This document shows positions 27,140 through 47,531 of a stretch of DNA of 48,996 nucleotides, one piece after another. The translations under genes and the position numbers were made by a program. The notes under the pieces are model-generated. The model worked only from the letters and a program-made list of their open reading frames with translations, made no database searches and was not told the DNA's origin. Source of the stretch: an uncultured archaeon (GTDB lineage Archaea > Halobacteriota > Methanosarcinia > Methanosarcinales > Methanoperedenaceae); contig CABMIH010000020.1 of the NCBI GenBank assembly GCA_902386205.1, forward strand, positions 1-48,996, read 5' to 3'. Every line of letters begins with the position of its first letter. Within the stretch, counting starts at the first letter, position 1.

Positions 27140-27937
27140 TCAGAGCCTGTTAATCTCACATCTTAATCCCCTTTCTTTACATATCTTCGTAATCCTCCCG
27201 AAAATCTCATTATAGTACGCAACATCCCCACCCAAAAATAGTCTCTCATACGCAGGTAACAATCCCGGATCAAACACCCTGATAAACTCTTTTACACCAT
27301 CCCAGACCCCGTCTTTTATCCTTAGCCTGTCAACAAGAACATATTTCGGCCCCAATGCTGATATGGCATCTACCAGCGCCTGCGCATCTGTAATATAAGG
27401 CATCACAGGCCCCAGGAAAACCCATGTGCTGACACCGTTTTTTGAAAGCTCAGAAAGCGCTCTCAGCCTCTCCTCTGCACTTGATGCCCCGGGCTCGAGT
27501 TTTTCTCTCACTTCTTCATCCAGCGAAGTAAGTGTAAGGCCTACTTCGATATTTGAGAATCTCTTCAATAAATCCATATCTCTCAGCACAAGAGAAGATT
27601 TTGTCTGTATGCATACCGGGAAATCGTGCATCAGCAGGAGTTCAAGGCATCTTCGCGTTATCTCATATTTTTTCTCAACAGGCTGGTAGGGGTCTGTTAC
27701 AGTCCCAAGCCCCACAACTCCTTTTTTCTTTGTCCTTAGCTCCTTTGAAAGGATTCGGGGCAGGTTTACCTTTACTTCCACCACTTCACCCCATTTTCCC
27801 TTATCCCAGTGGACAACGCAGGGGGCATAGCAATAGGCGCAGGCATGCCCGCAGCCCCTGTAAGGATTGAGGGCATAATCCAGTCCCGGCAGTTTTGAGG
27901 GTGAGAGTGCGGATTTGACTTTTATTTCGTTGATCAT
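27140..27937 (-). CDS. Radical SAM protein, SplB-like
   Basis: A 265-residue radical SAM protein of the SPL (spore photoproduct lyase-like) group. It opens with LSPSKLPGLDYALNPYRGC, then the cluster motif CGHACAYCYAP, and TVTDPYQPVEKKYEITRRCLELL, which is diagnostic for the group, as is the later GLTLTSLDEEVREKLEPGA. The function of archaeal members is not settled, and DNA-lesion repair is only a possibility. It is transcribed alone. Start ATG at 27937. Confidence 0.85.
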   Translation of the reverse strand: MINEIKVKSALSPSKLPGLDYALNPYRGCGHACAYCYAPCVVHWDKGKWGEVVEVKVNLPRILSKELRTKKKGVVGLGTVTDPYQPVEKKYEITRRCLELLLMHDFPVCIQTKSSLVLRDMDLLKRFSNIEVGLTLTSLDEEVREKLEPGASSAEERLRALSELSKNGVSTWVFLGPVMPYITDAQALVDAISALGPKYVLVDRLRIKDGVWDGVKEFIRVFDPGLLPAYERLFLGGDVAYYNEIFGRITKICKERGLRCEINRL

Positions 27938-28035
27938 AATACAAATACTTGTTTATGGTGTTCTTAAATATTCACTCATTCTGTCAATGAGTTAACAATA
28001 TATAAAATAAAATACTATCTCTAATCGGGGTTTAA

Positions 28036-29469
28036 ATGAAAGAATATGACCTGATAATTGTAGGCACCGGCTCAGCCATGAACTATATTAATGCAATTAT
28101 AGATATGAATCCTGATTTCAAAATTGCTGTTATCGATAAGGATGAACCCGGTGGAATATGTCTCACGCGCGGATGCATACCTTCCAAGCTCCTTCTTTAT
28201 CCTGCAGAACTTATAAGGACAATTGGGACTGCGGGGAGATTCGGCATAGATGTGGAATTAAAGAACATCGATTTCAAATTTGTAATGGAAAGGATGCGAA
28301 GGTTGATATCGAATGATATCGACATGATACGAAAAGGACTATCAGGCAACCCGAATATAGATTATTATAACGCGACTGCAGAGTTCCTGTCCCCATATAC
28401 GATGACCGCAGGCGGGGAGACTATTAAAGGAAAAATGATATTCCTCTGCACTGGTTCAAAACCCTTGATACCGGATATAAAGGGATTGGATGAAACCGGT
28501 TATCTCACGAGCGACACTGTACTTGAAATGACGCAGCTTCCTGGCATCATCGCCATTATTGGAGGGGGATACATTGCCGCAGAGTACGGTCATTTCTTCT
28601 CTGCGATGGGGTCTGAGATAACAGTCATCGGGAGAAATCCGCAGTTCCTTCCGGACGAAGAGCCTGAGATATCAGCGCTGGCAAAAAGGGATATGTCAAA
28701 ATACATGAATATCATCACCGGTCATGAGGTTACCGGGGTTCAAAAGGGCGGCAATGGGAAGAAAAAAGTTATTGCACAGGATAAAAGCAGCGGGAAAGAA
28801 GTAGCTATAGAGGCCGATGAAATACTCGTAGCTTCAGGAAGGGGACCGAATACCGAACTGCTCCCTGAAAAAGGAGGGATAAAAACCGATAGCACTGGAT
28901 GGATCGATGTGAACGAATATATGGAAACTTCCAGTCCTAAAGTGTGGGCTTTCGGAGACGCTGACGGGAAATACCTCTTCAAGCATGTTGCAAATCATGA
29001 ATCCACAGTTGTTTTTTATAATGCATTCATGAACAAAAAAATAAAGGCGGACTACCATGCAGTACCTCATGCTGTTTTTTCATATCCTGAAATAGCGGGT
29101 GTCGGAATGAAGGAAGGCGAAGCAATAGAGATGTACGGGGAGGAGAACGTGCTAATAGGTTTTGAGAAATACGAGGATACCGCAAAAGGTGAGGCAATGG
29201 ACGTGAAAGATTATTTTGTAAAGGTAATTGTGGAAAAAGGCACAAAAGTAATCCTTGGCGCGCATATAATCGGCCCCTATGCCTCGATACTTATACATGA
29301 GATCATAAATCTCATGTACACCCAGGATGGGAGTGCAACCCCTGTTATCCAGGGAATTCATATTCATCCCGCTCTAAGCGAGGTCGTGCAGAGGGCGTTC
29401 CAGTCGCTGATGCCTCCGGCGCATTATCACCATGTTCTCGGGCACATGCGCCTACAGGAGAATTTTTAA
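28036..29469 (+). CDS. Flavin-dependent disulfide reductase (lpd/mycothione-reductase-like)
   Basis: A 477-residue class I pyridine nucleotide-disulfide oxidoreductase. It carries the FAD-binding start YDLIIVGTGSAMN and the redox-active cysteine pair GGICLTRGCIPSK (about 40-52). The NAD(P)H fold IAIIGGGYIAAEYG lies near residue 173, the second FAD motif VWAFGDAD near 310, and the C-terminal active-site motif HIHPALSE near 447. GTGSxxN rather than GGGPGG recalls mycothione reductase. No lipoyl or 2-oxoacid dehydrogenase genes are nearby, so it probably reduces another disulfide or a metal. It is a single-gene unit. Confidence 0.85.
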   Translation: MKEYDLIIVGTGSAMNYINAIIDMNPDFKIAVIDKDEPGGICLTRGCIPSKLLLYPAELIRTIGTAGRFGIDVELKNIDFKFVMERMRRLISNDIDMIRKGLSGNPNIDYYNATAEFLSPYTMTAGGETIKGKMIFLCTGSKPLIPDIKGLDETGYLTSDTVLEMTQLPGIIAIIGGGYIAAEYGHFFSAMGSEITVIGRNPQFLPDEEPEISALAKRDMSKYMNIITGHEVTGVQKGGNGKKKVIAQDKSSGKEVAIEADEILVASGRGPNTELLPEKGGIKTDSTGWIDVNEYMETSSPKVWAFGDADGKYLFKHVANHESTVVFYNAFMNKKIKADYHAVPHAVFSYPEIAGVGMKEGEAIEMYGEENVLIGFEKYEDTAKGEAMDVKDYFVKVIVEKGTKVILGAHIIGPYASILIHEIINLMYTQDGSATPVIQGIHIHPALSEVVQRAFQSLMPPAHYHHVLGHMRLQENF

Positions 29470-36507: not shown

Positions 36508-36729
36508 ATGGCACACAAAACACTCACAATATCGGAAGAAGCATATGAAGCACTTGCCGGGCTTAAAAAAGAAGGGGAAAGTTTCACTGAACTCATAAAT
36601 CGCATCACTGCACCTTTGCGGAAGAAAAAACTCAGCGAGTTTGCGGGGATGATAAAAGATGAAAAATTTGCAAAAGCAGCATTGGAAGTAAGACACCATT
36701 CAAGCAGATTGAAGAGGTCGAAACTGTGA
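36508..36729 (+). CDS. DUF217/VapB-type antitoxin
   Basis: A 73-residue antitoxin of the archaeal DUF217 (VapB) family. It has KTLTISEEAYEALAGLKKEGESFTELINRI, an RHH-like DNA-binding start, then a basic C-terminal arm (RHHSSRLKRSKL). The frame opens six codons earlier at 36490; I take the ATG at 36508 because it begins the conserved part. Its stop overlaps the GTG of the PIN toxin (4 bp). Confidence 0.85.
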   Translation: MAHKTLTISEEAYEALAGLKKEGESFTELINRITAPLRKKKLSEFAGMIKDEKFAKAALEVRHHSSRLKRSKL

Positions 36730-37130
36730 CAGTGTTTGATACGAATTTCTTGGTGGATCTTCTTAATGATGAACCGGGAATATCGCATATAGCTGATTCT
36801 TTTGAACATCCCAAAACAACTGCCATAAATGCCTTTGAACTATATTACGGAGCCTGGAATTCATCAAAACCAAAAGAAAATATTATAGAAATCAACTCCC
36901 TATTGAAGTCATTAGGCATACTTGAGGTTGACGCAGTTACTGCACAGAAAGCTGCTGAGATTCATACGAGACTGAAAAACTCGGGATCCACTTTGGAGCT
37001 CGAAGATGTTCTAATAGCGGGGATTTGCATAGTAAATAACGAAGAGCTTGTGACCAGGAATCTTGATCATTTTAAACGCATACCAGGTCTTAAGTGCAGG
37101 TCTTGGCAGGGAGACTATGGAATGACCTGA
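36726..37130 (+). CDS. PIN-domain toxin, VapC family
   Basis: A 134-residue PIN ribonuclease, the partner of the DUF217 antitoxin just upstream. The four acid positions are FDTNFLVDLL (Asp5), INAFELYYG, LELEDVLIAG and TRNLDHFKRI. It starts with GTG, overlapping the antitoxin stop. It seems intact. It marks the left edge of the AT-rich accessory patch. Confidence 0.88.
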   Translation: MTVFDTNFLVDLLNDEPGISHIADSFEHPKTTAINAFELYYGAWNSSKPKENIIEINSLLKSLGILEVDAVTAQKAAEIHTRLKNSGSTLELEDVLIAGICIVNNEELVTRNLDHFKRIPGLKCRSWQGDYGMT

Positions 37131-37146
37131 GAAAACTCACTAATTC

Positions 37147-37182
37147 CCGTTACGCAATTTTTTCTAATATTTACCGTTACGG
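37147..37182. repeat. Left iteron pair, CCGTTACGS
   Basis: CCGTTACGC at 37147 and CCGTTACGG at 37174, 27 bp apart. They are the reverse complement of the CCGTAACGG motifs found to the right of the recombinase gene. The pair lies in the 298-bp gap between vapC and the HNH gene. Confidence 0.75.
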
Positions 37183-37318
37183 ATATTACTGTATTATTTT
37201 TATTCGAACCTTTTATTTTAATTTATAGCGATACTTCTATGATTGCCTTGATTTAACTATAGGATAGCTTATGAATGAGATTATACGTGGGCGTAACATA
37301 AGAGTATCAAAAGATTGT

Positions 37319-37360
37319 AGGAAAAACTGTATATAACAAATATTATATACAGTTTTTCCT
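37319..37360. repeat. 18-bp perfect inverted repeat
   Basis: AGGAAAAACTGTATATAA and its exact complement TTATATACAGTTTTTCCT surround a 6-nt loop (CAAATA). It is the strongest hairpin I see in the window. It stands about 70 bp before the HNH gene. It may be an operator, a terminator-like RNA stem or a recombination site; no second copy was noticed elsewhere. Confidence 0.75.
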
Positions 37361-37428
37361 TTGGTTTATTTGAATCCGATTGATAAATCGCAATCTCTAT
37401 GTGATGTTAGCGATATTTAAAATAAGAC

Positions 37429-37782
37429 ATGAATAACAAAAAGTACATAAGAAAAAACTATATAATCTGTAGCAGGTGTGGAAGAAAAAGACTCCATCAT
37501 GCACACGGTTTATGCAGTGGATGTTATATGTCGGTAAACCGAATAAATCAAATTAAAAAACATAATGCTGAAACATACCATAATATTTCTTATGATTTAT
37601 ACCAGAAATTAACTGAAAAATGCTGTATATGTGGTTTTGATTCAATAGTTGAACTTCATCATATTGATGAAAAACATGAAAATAACTCTACGAATAACTT
37701 AGTTGGCTTGTGTCCGAACCACCATGCTATGATTCATCATAGAGATTTTAGTGAAGAAATAAAAAAATTGATTCTAAAATAA
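37429..37782 (+). CDS. HNH endonuclease-like protein
   Basis: A 117-residue protein with an N-terminal zinc ribbon (CSRCGRKRLHHAHGLCSGCY, residues 14-33) and a C-terminal HNH domain: CCICGF (about 66-71), VELHHIDEKHENNSTNNLV and LCPNHHAMIHH. The His-Asn-His residues and the structural CxxC pairs are present, so it may cut DNA. Such small HNH proteins travel in mobile elements and homing units. It is AT-rich, Lys-rich, and lies directly before xerA in the same orientation. Confidence 0.75.
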   Translation: MNNKKYIRKNYIICSRCGRKRLHHAHGLCSGCYMSVNRINQIKKHNAETYHNISYDLYQKLTEKCCICGFDSIVELHHIDEKHENNSTNNLVGLCPNHHAMIHHRDFSEEIKKLILK

Positions 37783-37858
37783 TGCAAATGTCATAAATTA
37801 ATCATTTCTTTAAAAGAGATTTTATATACTTTGAACAAAAATAATAGAAAAGTTGTTT

Positions 37859-38689
37859 ATGATATTTGATGAACGTCTTAGGAAGCTTACAATTGAGATG
37901 AAGTTGAGGGGTTTCTCACCACAGACGGCAAAAATGTATTTGTTTTATAACCAGAAGTTACTTGATCATATAAAAAAAGAACCAATAGACATCACAGAAG
38001 ATGACATAAAGGATTTTCTTGCATACAAACTGTCAGACGATTCGCTTTCGACTAGCACGATTGCGCTTATAAAAGCAGCTTTAAAATTTTTTTATACTGA
38101 CATTCTTGGAAAAAATATCTCTCAGATAAAAACTCCAAAAATGTCAAAAAAACTTCCAATAGTCCTCAGCCGGACTGAAATAAAAAACTTGATCGAAAAA
38201 ACAGAAAACATCAAACATAAGCTCATAATTGAACTACTCTACTCTACAGGTTTGCGACTTTCAGAATGTATCAATCTGAAATACTCTGACCTTGATTTAA
38301 ATGATGGTGTAGGCTGGGTTCGAATGGGAAAAGGTTCTAAGGACAGGATTTTTATTATTTCTGATACATTCAAGAAAGATCTTCTCGATTACCATGAAAA
38401 GAATGAATCTGACGGGAAAGGGTACATATTTTTGGTGAATGGTAAAAAAATGACATACCGTGGCATACAGCATGCAATAAAAGTTTCAGCAAAGCGCTCA
38501 GGTATTGAAAAACCCGTCCATGTCCACACTCTCAGGCATTCGTTCGCCACACATCTGCTTGAGAACGGCGTAGACATAAGGAAGATACAGAAACTCCTGG
38601 GACATTCGAATTTACAGACCACGCAGATATACACGCAGGTGTCTAGCGAAGAGATCAAGAAGATAAAGAGCCCGCTGGATATGCTCTGA
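37859..38689 (+). CDS. Tyrosine recombinase, XerA-type
   Basis: A 276-residue integrase-family recombinase with an N-terminal SAM-like core-binding domain (GFSPQTAKMYLFYNQKLLDHI, LSTSTIALIKAALKFFYTDI) and a catalytic domain. The expected residues are Arg in YSTGLRLSEC, Lys in GKGSKDR, His-x-x-Arg in VHTLRHSFATHLLENG, His in LGHSNLQTTQIY, and the nucleophile Tyr in that last motif. Archaeal XerA acts on dif sites to resolve chromosome dimers, while close relatives mobilise elements. Flanking iterons and palindromes may be its targets. I take the ATG at 37859 over the TTG at 37853. Confidence 0.92.
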   Translation: MIFDERLRKLTIEMKLRGFSPQTAKMYLFYNQKLLDHIKKEPIDITEDDIKDFLAYKLSDDSLSTSTIALIKAALKFFYTDILGKNISQIKTPKMSKKLPIVLSRTEIKNLIEKTENIKHKLIIELLYSTGLRLSECINLKYSDLDLNDGVGWVRMGKGSKDRIFIISDTFKKDLLDYHEKNESDGKGYIFLVNGKKMTYRGIQHAIKVSAKRSGIEKPVHVHTLRHSFATHLLENGVDIRKIQKLLGHSNLQTTQIYTQVSSEEIKKIKSPLDML

Positions 38690-38718
38690 AGTAATTTGCG
38701 TATTTTTATAAACAAAAT

Positions 38719-38781
38719 CCGTAACGCAATATTTCTGCATATTTCCCGTAACGGTATTTTCTCAAATAAATGCCGTAACGG
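38719..38781. repeat. Right iterons, first group
   Basis: CCGTAACGC at 38719, CCGTAACGG at 38746 and CCGTAACGG at 38773, spaced exactly 27 bp apart, starting 30 bp after the xerA stop. The orientation is inverted relative to the pair before the HNH gene. The rest of 38690-39146 has an imperfect inverted repeat (39009-39020 with 39049-39060, GATTGATAGGAT / ATCCTATCGAATC) and no gene. Confidence 0.8.
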
Positions 38782-39146
38782 TGTTGAAACAATATGAGCC
38801 TGAAGCAAACTCATTATAATACATTAAAAATCAACAACGAACGATACTAACTCAGATCGGTGTGAGTTCGTATCGAGTTCGCTGTAAGTTTGTTGTCAAA
38901 TCTCATCATATTGCTGGCACACAAAAGTAATACAGCGACGCATTAGGTTTTGCAGCGGCGCCACAAATTAATATGATACGATTTATGATTTTCAAACAGG
39001 ATTTACGAGATTGATAGGATGAGATCAATTATCCCATATATCCTGTTATCCTATCGAATCGGCACCTCAGCCTATAATTTCCATTGAAAATACGTGTTTT
39101 TTTGCTTAAAATTAGAAAAATAAGAATTGGATTTGAATAAGAGTCA

Positions 39147-39336
39147 AGTGGGCAGAGGGGATTATGGTGGTGGTATGAAAAAAGAGGAGTTTTTTCTGCC
39201 CACTATGATTCGTATATATACGAACTATGGTATTTATAGTTTACGTTTCTTGTAAAATTAAATTATTCAGACGATTCAATACTTGAGGACATATCGTAAT
39301 TCCGTAACGGTATTTTCGACCTATAACCCGTAACGG
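39147..39336. repeat. Composite repeat unit 1
   Basis: In order: a 10-bp stem AGTGGGCAGA / TCTGCCCACT (39147-39156 with 39195-39204) whose loop contains GGGGATTATGGTGGT; a perfect 16-bp palindrome TTCGTATATATACGAA (39209-39224); TTTAC-N7-GTAAA about 15 bp later; then two iterons CCGTAACGG at 39302 and 39328, 26 bp apart. The same order is repeated in unit 2. Confidence 0.75.
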
Positions 39337-39357
39337 ATATTCATGGCATAGGAGGGT

Positions 39358-39530
39358 AGTGGGCAGAGGGGATTATGGTGGTATCAAAAAAAGTTTTGTT
39401 CTGCCCACTATAGTTCGTATATAGACGAATGAACATATATAGTTTACGCTTCATGTAAAGTCGAAGAAATTGCGTAACGGGTTTATTACTACATTTTCCG
39501 TAACGGTAATTTATTTATTAACCGTTACGG
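39358..39530. repeat. Composite repeat unit 2
   Basis: A direct repeat of unit 1, 211 bp downstream: stem AGTGGGCAGA / TCTGCCCACT (39358-39367 with 39400-39409), near-palindrome TTCGTATATAGACGAA (39414-39429, one base off), TTTAC-N7-GTAAA near 39443, then iterons at 39472 (GCGTAACGG), 39498 (CCGTAACGG) and 39522 (CCGTTACGG, reversed). The hairpin arms are identical in the two units while the loop sequences differ in length, which suggests selection on the stem. Confidence 0.75.
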
Positions 39531-39648
39531 AATTATGCAGCTATGCTTGAATCATATCGAGCCTTCCGGTTAATCTTAAATATAAAAACGTAACTAATGA
39601 AAGGCCTTGTTGTTCCTCAGAAAAAAAAATTAAAAACTGGTGGTGAAT

Positions 39649-46658: not shown

Positions 46659-47531
46659 TCAGGCGATGAGCGTCCCTTCTTTCCGTGTCAAATCCTTAAA
46701 AGCAGCCATTAACTTTTTAGTTACATTTCCGGGCTTTCCGTCTCCTATTGACCGCCCGTCGATTTTCGTGATCGGGGCTATTTCGGCAGCCGTACCGGTA
46801 ACGAAAACCTCATCTGCCGTGTAAATGTCGAACAGGCCCATATTAGTCTCTGTTACGGCAATTCCTTCCTTTACAGCCAGTTCAATAGCAGCCGCCCTTG
46901 TTATCCCGCGAAGGTTATTAAGGGTCGGGGGCGTGATGATCCTGCCATTTTTTATGACAAAAATATTATCACCAGAACCTTCTGAGATATTCCCATGCAC
47001 ATCGAAAATTATAGCTTCGTCGCCTCCCTTCACATTTGCTTCGATCTTGGCCAGGATGTTGTTAAGATAATTCAATGACTTTATGTTCGGGGGGAGGGAT
47101 TCGGGGGCGTTTCTCCTGATGCCTACCGTAACGGCTGTCAGACCTTTTTCATACAGGTCGCCATACATGGCGCCCCATTCCTGCGTGATGATGAATACAT
47201 TCGGTTTTGGACATTTTCTTGGATCAAGCCCAAGGTCCCCATCCCCGCGTGTAACTATGGGGCGTATATATGCATCGCTCAACTTGTTCTTCTTTAAGGT
47301 CTCTACAATTGCCTTTTTCATATCCTCTTTTGAAAGGGGAATTTGCAGGTCTATCGCTTTTGCAGAATCGTACATCCTGTCCAGGTGCTCATCAAGCCTG
47401 AATACACGCCCGTTATAAGCCCTGATTCCCTCAAAAACGCCGTCCCCATATAAGAAGCCGTGATCGTATATTGAGGTTCTTGCCTCATGTTTTGGCACAA
47501 ATTTTCCGTTGAAATAAACTAATAAATCCAT
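46659..47531 (-). CDS. ilvE: Branched-chain amino acid aminotransferase
   Basis: IlvE transfers amino groups between branched-chain keto acids and glutamate using pyridoxal phosphate. The 290-residue fold-type IV protein has [20 protein letters not shown] near residue 22. The PLP-binding Lys is in [18 protein letters not shown] (about 148-165), and [14 protein letters not shown] and [13 protein letters not shown] are the phosphate-cup motifs. It completes the last step of valine, leucine and isoleucine synthesis after ilvD nearby. Start ATG at 47531. Confidence 0.95.

Follow-up and report, generated by a model that had tools for sequence, protein, structure and literature searches.

What role do regularly spaced palindromes play around a recombinase gene in a key anaerobic methane oxidiser? 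A sequence-only reading of the window (the whole 48,996-nucleotide stretch of DNA analysed here) had suggested that the recombinase, an adjacent HNH gene and the repeats around them form an integrated replicon or transposon-like element, and had raised as another possibility that they are a locus for chromosome-dimer resolution whose dif region is elaborate. The first interpretation did not survive our comparison of related genomes, and the alternative is supported by a dif site found within the locus. We consider it likely that Candidatus Methanoperedens resolves its chromosome dimers at this Xer/dif locus, and that the arrays are accessory sites for a DNA-binding protein.

Results

All ten iterons described by the sequence-only reading are present, at 37147, 37174, 38719, 38746, 38773, 39302, 39328, 39472, 39498 and 39522 (Table 1). 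They are real and highly significant; 1000 Markov shuffles of the 2.5-kb region gave a mean of 0.025 sites and a maximum of 1, and none of these shuffles contained a neighbouring pair 24–28 bp apart, of which the region has six. Over 196 sites the consensus is CCGT-N-ACGG with AT flanks, and the palindrome of the arrays is CCGTNACGG in a register of 26–27 bp. Because the 9-mer is itself this palindrome, left-right orientation is uninformative, and the reported inversion of the left pair relative to the right copies has little meaning, CCGTWACGG being symmetrical apart from its centre. The motif had not been noticed elsewhere in the window; we found one more exact 9-mer at 47126, inside an aminotransferase-like gene. 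The remaining exact copies of CCGTWACGG that we inspected across the genome also lay within coding frames, and none was arrayed. The candidates of an autoregulated iteron-binding gene, as the inspected isolated copies fell in coding sequence, and of an array remnant at C86:12419/12554, where two sites 135 bp apart both lie inside an ORF, were therefore rejected.

Among the 196 sites, 86 neighbour distances were exactly 27 bp and 17 were 26 bp. The spacers between them have a GC content of 18.5%, and within a locus their likeness (0.436) was only slightly higher than that of shuffled spacers (0.370). This argues against tandem duplication as the source of the arrays, and indicates that what is kept is the palindrome and its spacing. 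The AT-richness noted earlier was confirmed, with a GC content of 28.8% for the HNH gene, 37.4% for xerA and 28.2% for the left intergenic region versus 43.3% for the window.

Table 1. Coordinates of features at the xerA/dif locus
Feature	Position	Strand	Remarks
Dif-proximal iteron pair CCGTTACGC, CCGTTACGG	37147..37182	.	27 bp apart
Near-invariant ~34-bp element TATTTTTATTCRAACCTYTTATTTTAATTTATAGCG	37195..37230	+	
dif site	37319..37360	.	28-bp core 37326-37353, arms extended to 18 nt
Small HNH-type protein, 117 aa	37429..37782	+	between dif and xerA promoter, in a subclade
xerA TATA box TTTTATATAC	37820..37829	+	inferred promoter, from sequence comparison
xerA, archaeal Xer tyrosine recombinase	37853..38689	+	TTG start 37853 or ATG 37859
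Iteron array, 3 copies	38719..38781	.	27 bp spacing; directly downstream of xerA; same placement in relatives
Iteron pair	39302..39336	.	26 bp spacing
Iteron triplet	39472..39530	.	26 and 24 bp spacing

The sequence-only reading had missed the perfect 28-bp sequence ACTGTATATAA-CAAATA-TTATATACAGT, which is situated between the left iterons and the HNH gene. All 11 of 11 arm positions are palindromic, the core sits within a longer inverted repeat (18-bp arms, 6-bp gap), and it is the sole perfect 11-6-11 inverted repeat in the window. From 100 Markov shuffles, amounting to 4.9 Mb, we obtained no 11-6-11 repeat with a TATAA core. Archaeal dif sites are defined as two 11-nt repeats with a 6-nt spacer (PMC8371274, PMC5357621), and the architecture found here, together with its TATAA-N6-TTATA core, fits this definition. 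Across relatives these inner arms are fixed, save one changed base in genome G023, while the centre varies and the outer arm bases vary symmetrically (ACTG/AGTA/ATGT). The site is present in 29 of the 31 genus genomes, counting a degenerate copy read by eye in G011, and, in the sister genus, in both of the xerA-bearing genomes that could be judged; the two genus genomes lacking it have a completeness of 63% and 68%. Genome G000 has a single match at ≤3 mismatches, and some relatives have weaker, mostly imperfect extra matches on other contigs. For an archaeal dif, a location in the region of replication termination is expected, with short-sequence polarity inverting at that point. We saw no inversion of GC skew or four-fold-site skew at dif in one contig, nor of oligomer polarity in four; these tests used MAG contigs only, all family genomes searched being multi-contig assemblies.

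The recombinase had been called XerA-type, and this was borne out. Its product scored 265.7 bits against NF040815 (the XerA_Arch equivalog; cut-off 220), its best PDB match was P. abyssi XerA (4a8e, 6e-48), and the catalytic residues R-K-H-R-H-Y, read by eye in the translation, agree with the archaeal family requirement R-K-H-R-[H/W]-Y. It is the genome's only close XerA orthologue, and its relatives at 74–89% identity all belong to Candidatus Methanoperedens or its family. The identification of XerA and its dif site is thus well supported. As a separate observation, genome G022 (contig C6, around 27295-28125; L278) encodes a second XerA-like recombinase of 51% identity. Close to it are a 17–22 bp tandem repeat and the palindrome TCTGGGGATAA-TCCTTG-TTATCCCCAGT, and the whole is possibly a separate Xer-type element.

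The HNH protein had no Pfam or NCBIfam match and matched weakly, in PDB, the HNH regions of IscB-type and group II maturase proteins. Its relatives are restricted to the closest genomes, between dif and xerA, with a 25-aa remnant in G014; it therefore appears to be a recent insert and not a core part of the locus. In relatives without this insert a TATA-like sequence, TTTTTATATA, directly abuts dif. Since dif overlaps the xerA promoter in these genomes, XerA probably represses its own gene; comparison of the sequences suggests that XerA bound at dif would block that promoter. The module is bordered on its right by a hydrogenase-4 subunit B gene, and a VapC-type PIN toxin gene (36726-37130) lies directly to the left of the iterons.

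A conserved element of ~34 bp, TATTTTTATTCAAACCTCTTATTTTAATTTATRG, also missed by the sequence-only reading, is placed between the proximal array and dif. It was found at the dif locus in 25 genomes at ≤3 mismatches and as a weaker copy in G002 (26 of 31 in total), and it is absent or diverged in G012, G016, G023 and the sister genus. There is one copy per genome, in constant orientation relative to dif; G021 has a second copy elsewhere. A different element, a strong hairpin (fold z -3.8) combining GTGGGCAGAGGGGATTATGGTGG...TTTTTTCTGCCCACTAT with the palindrome TTCGTATATATACGAA, occurs in two copies at 39137-39224 and 39348-39429. Most relatives that carry it have one copy; it is at the dif locus in G000, G008 and G023, and those copies inspected away from this locus lie beside an aminotransferase-like gene. 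An Rfam search returned nothing near a gathering score.

Pairs of iterons 26–27 bp apart, like dif, were matched in 29 of the 31 genus genomes, and a control with the reversed pattern gave zero. Among the matches listed, array pairs were essentially always at the xerA/dif locus, so that the motif is not scattered over the genomes in array form. A single exact pair stands apart from the xerA/dif contig in G007 (C158, 2098-2133; L098), where no dif was found. In the sister genus, G031 has a second contig, C217, with two pairs and without xerA (L107/L276); this may be the opposite flank of the xerA locus, separated from it in the assembly. In a set of 393 genomes from the phylum, those of other families matched only as isolated pairs, most of them in G+C-rich sequence, and about 30 other euryarchaeal xerA loci checked had neither dif nor CCGT arrays alongside.

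Most genomes share one arrangement: array, ~34-bp element, dif, xerA and a further array. The first dif-side iteron is about 160–195 bp away from the centre of dif, and the far array starts just after xerA. In G002, dif, the element and at least seven iterons lie on contig C61, and xerA lies on C117 without them. This split indicates that the arrays belong to dif and not to the xerA gene, a separation that rests on this one MAG. The genes flanking the locus differ among genomes, and gene order around dif therefore changes often, the iterons being kept as their neighbours change. Neither of the outcomes that the sequence-only reading had named as refuting it was therefore seen. One neighbourhood recurs, with UbiD, GPN-loop GTPase and UbiA-like genes to one side of the locus and Cdc48-like genes to the other (named from their sequences).

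Discussion

The earlier proposal of an integrated replicon or transposon-like element bounded by iterons could draw on the presence of a recombinase and a nuclease gene, on the AT-richness of the module and on the differing genes around it. However, essentially every genus genome of sufficient completeness has XerA, dif and arrays together at one locus. No empty site and no target duplication was seen, and dif and arrays, present in 29 of the 31 genus genomes, gave no sign of a presence-absence polymorphism of the transposon kind. XerA divergence tracks that of chromosomal Orc1 (r = 0.75 over ten genomes), no Rep or Orc1/Cdc6 initiator gene was seen next to the arrays, and the HNH gene alone looks like an insertion. 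We therefore reject this proposal as very improbable. A replication origin was likewise discarded, as Orc1/Cdc6 is not adjacent; full-length copies are on other contigs in nine of ten genomes, and in G003 one paralogue is 27 kb away. Viral and Borg-like carriers were also dismissed, since none of 81 IMG/VR matches to the pair pattern was a multi-pair AT-rich array. One AT-rich viral contig (3300020171_002226, 1714-1741; L240) contains the exact Methanoperedens dif pattern without iterons, and is either a chance match or a virus that uses dif.

The main rival to an accessory role is an archaeal centromere or partition site, in which the arrays would load a SegB-, ParB- or ParR-like protein that moves or holds sister termini and does not steer XerA. 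Clustered odd-centred palindromes at fixed spacing do resemble partition sites, and the arrays stay with dif, not xerA, in G002. SegB of Sulfolobales, a ribbon-helix-helix protein, likewise recognises a 13-bp odd-centred palindrome, TCTAGA-S-TCTAGA (PMC12284271). However, the iteron sequence is unrelated to this motif, and SegB sites are dispersed along the chromosome, unlike the arrays, which among the matches listed are at one locus. The proteins that we read next to the arrays included none recognisable as a segregation protein; we regard a partition role as unlikely. It is improbable that the iterons are operators of xerA or adjacent genes, with the dif palindrome an autoregulatory operator or terminator and not a recombination site. 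The TATA-like box abutting dif upstream of xerA in HNH-less relatives and the T-run after the hairpin are consistent with such a role, but arrays, element and dif persist far from xerA in G002, arrays also lie downstream of xerA, and RNA pairing alone would not require the conserved inner TATAA/TTATA bases. A reading as replication-fork barriers or terminus-organising sites like Tus/Ter or MatP/matS could draw on the position of the iterons around dif, and matS is a palindromic site with a variable centre, as the iterons are. Yet the iterons lie within a few kb and not across a macrodomain, they are symmetric where Ter sites are polar, and no strand-bias switch was detected, so that we give this explanation a similarly low probability.

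In the accessory-site reading that we prefer, XerA would bind the two 11-bp dif arms and resolve a chromosome dimer to monomers by strand exchange at the 6-bp centre. A putative dimeric DNA-binding protein would most likely occupy the CCGTNACGG arrays, forming a nucleoprotein complex on each dif region of which the ~34-bp element would be a further fixed part. Such a complex may act as a topological filter that confines recombination to dif sites on one dimer, as PepA and ArgR do at cer; alternatively, it may hold two dif regions together for segregation and so replace the role of FtsK. No FtsK equivalent is known in archaea, nor anything that drives Xer toward resolution (PMC8371274), and Cortez et al. 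proposed that the flanks of Thermococcales dif bind a partner controlling directionality (PMC2958812). The position and regularity of the arrays fit an accessory role, and the control element still missing from archaeal Xer recombination may be found in them. Several points count against this: no skew or polarity inversion marked dif as a terminus in the contigs covered, purified P. abyssi XerA needs no partner to recombine dif in vitro (PMC2958812), and some arrays are 1–2 kb from dif across xerA, farther than at cer, where the accessory sequences span ~180 bp and PepA and ArgR set directionality (PMC5357621). More tentatively, we speculate that dif, the ~34-bp element and the 27-bp-spaced arrays form a three-part site whose FtsK-independent synaptic complex gives XerA its directionality, and which possibly also marks the terminus in a centromere-like manner.

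The locus shares with the XerA/dif systems of Pyrococcus abyssi and Thermoplasma acidophilum (PMC2958812, PMC3646895) a single XerA, one 28-bp 11-6-11 dif per genome and conserved AT-rich flanks suspected to bind a partner. In contrast to those flanks of about 23 bp, the Methanoperedens flanks consist of 27-bp-spaced palindromic arrays and the ~34-bp element, and dif is beside xerA, which it is not in Thermococcales. In the Sulfolobales module dif is likewise close to xerA, but conservation next to it is limited to a 13-bp sequence on a single side (PMC2958812), and no arrays are reported. XerS/difSL and XerH/difH also use one recombinase, and difSL is linked to its gene, but these systems are bacterial and lack iteron arrays, and XerS depends on FtsK. 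The plasmid sites cer and psi combine a core Xer site with accessory sequence (~180 bp), on which PepA plus ArgR or ArcA set directionality; the Methanoperedens locus, with its nearest iterons 160–195 bp from dif in most genomes, is likened to them in geometry, and differs in being chromosomal, with palindromic arrays on both sides and some of these 1–2 kb away. With SegAB partition of Sulfolobales, where a small dimeric protein binds the sites, it shares odd-centred palindromes, of a different motif and clustered at one locus instead of scattered over the genome. No paper found in the open-access literature searched joins Methanoperedens with dif or describes these spaced palindromes.

If the accessory-site reading is correct, the locus would provide the first example of an accessory apparatus for Xer/dif in archaea. 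The conserved, sequence-defined region around dif provides concrete DNA baits for the missing partner, and the dif locus is flagged as a place of frequent change in neighbouring gene order. Methanoperedens also gains a defined dif site and a resolution cassette for vector design.
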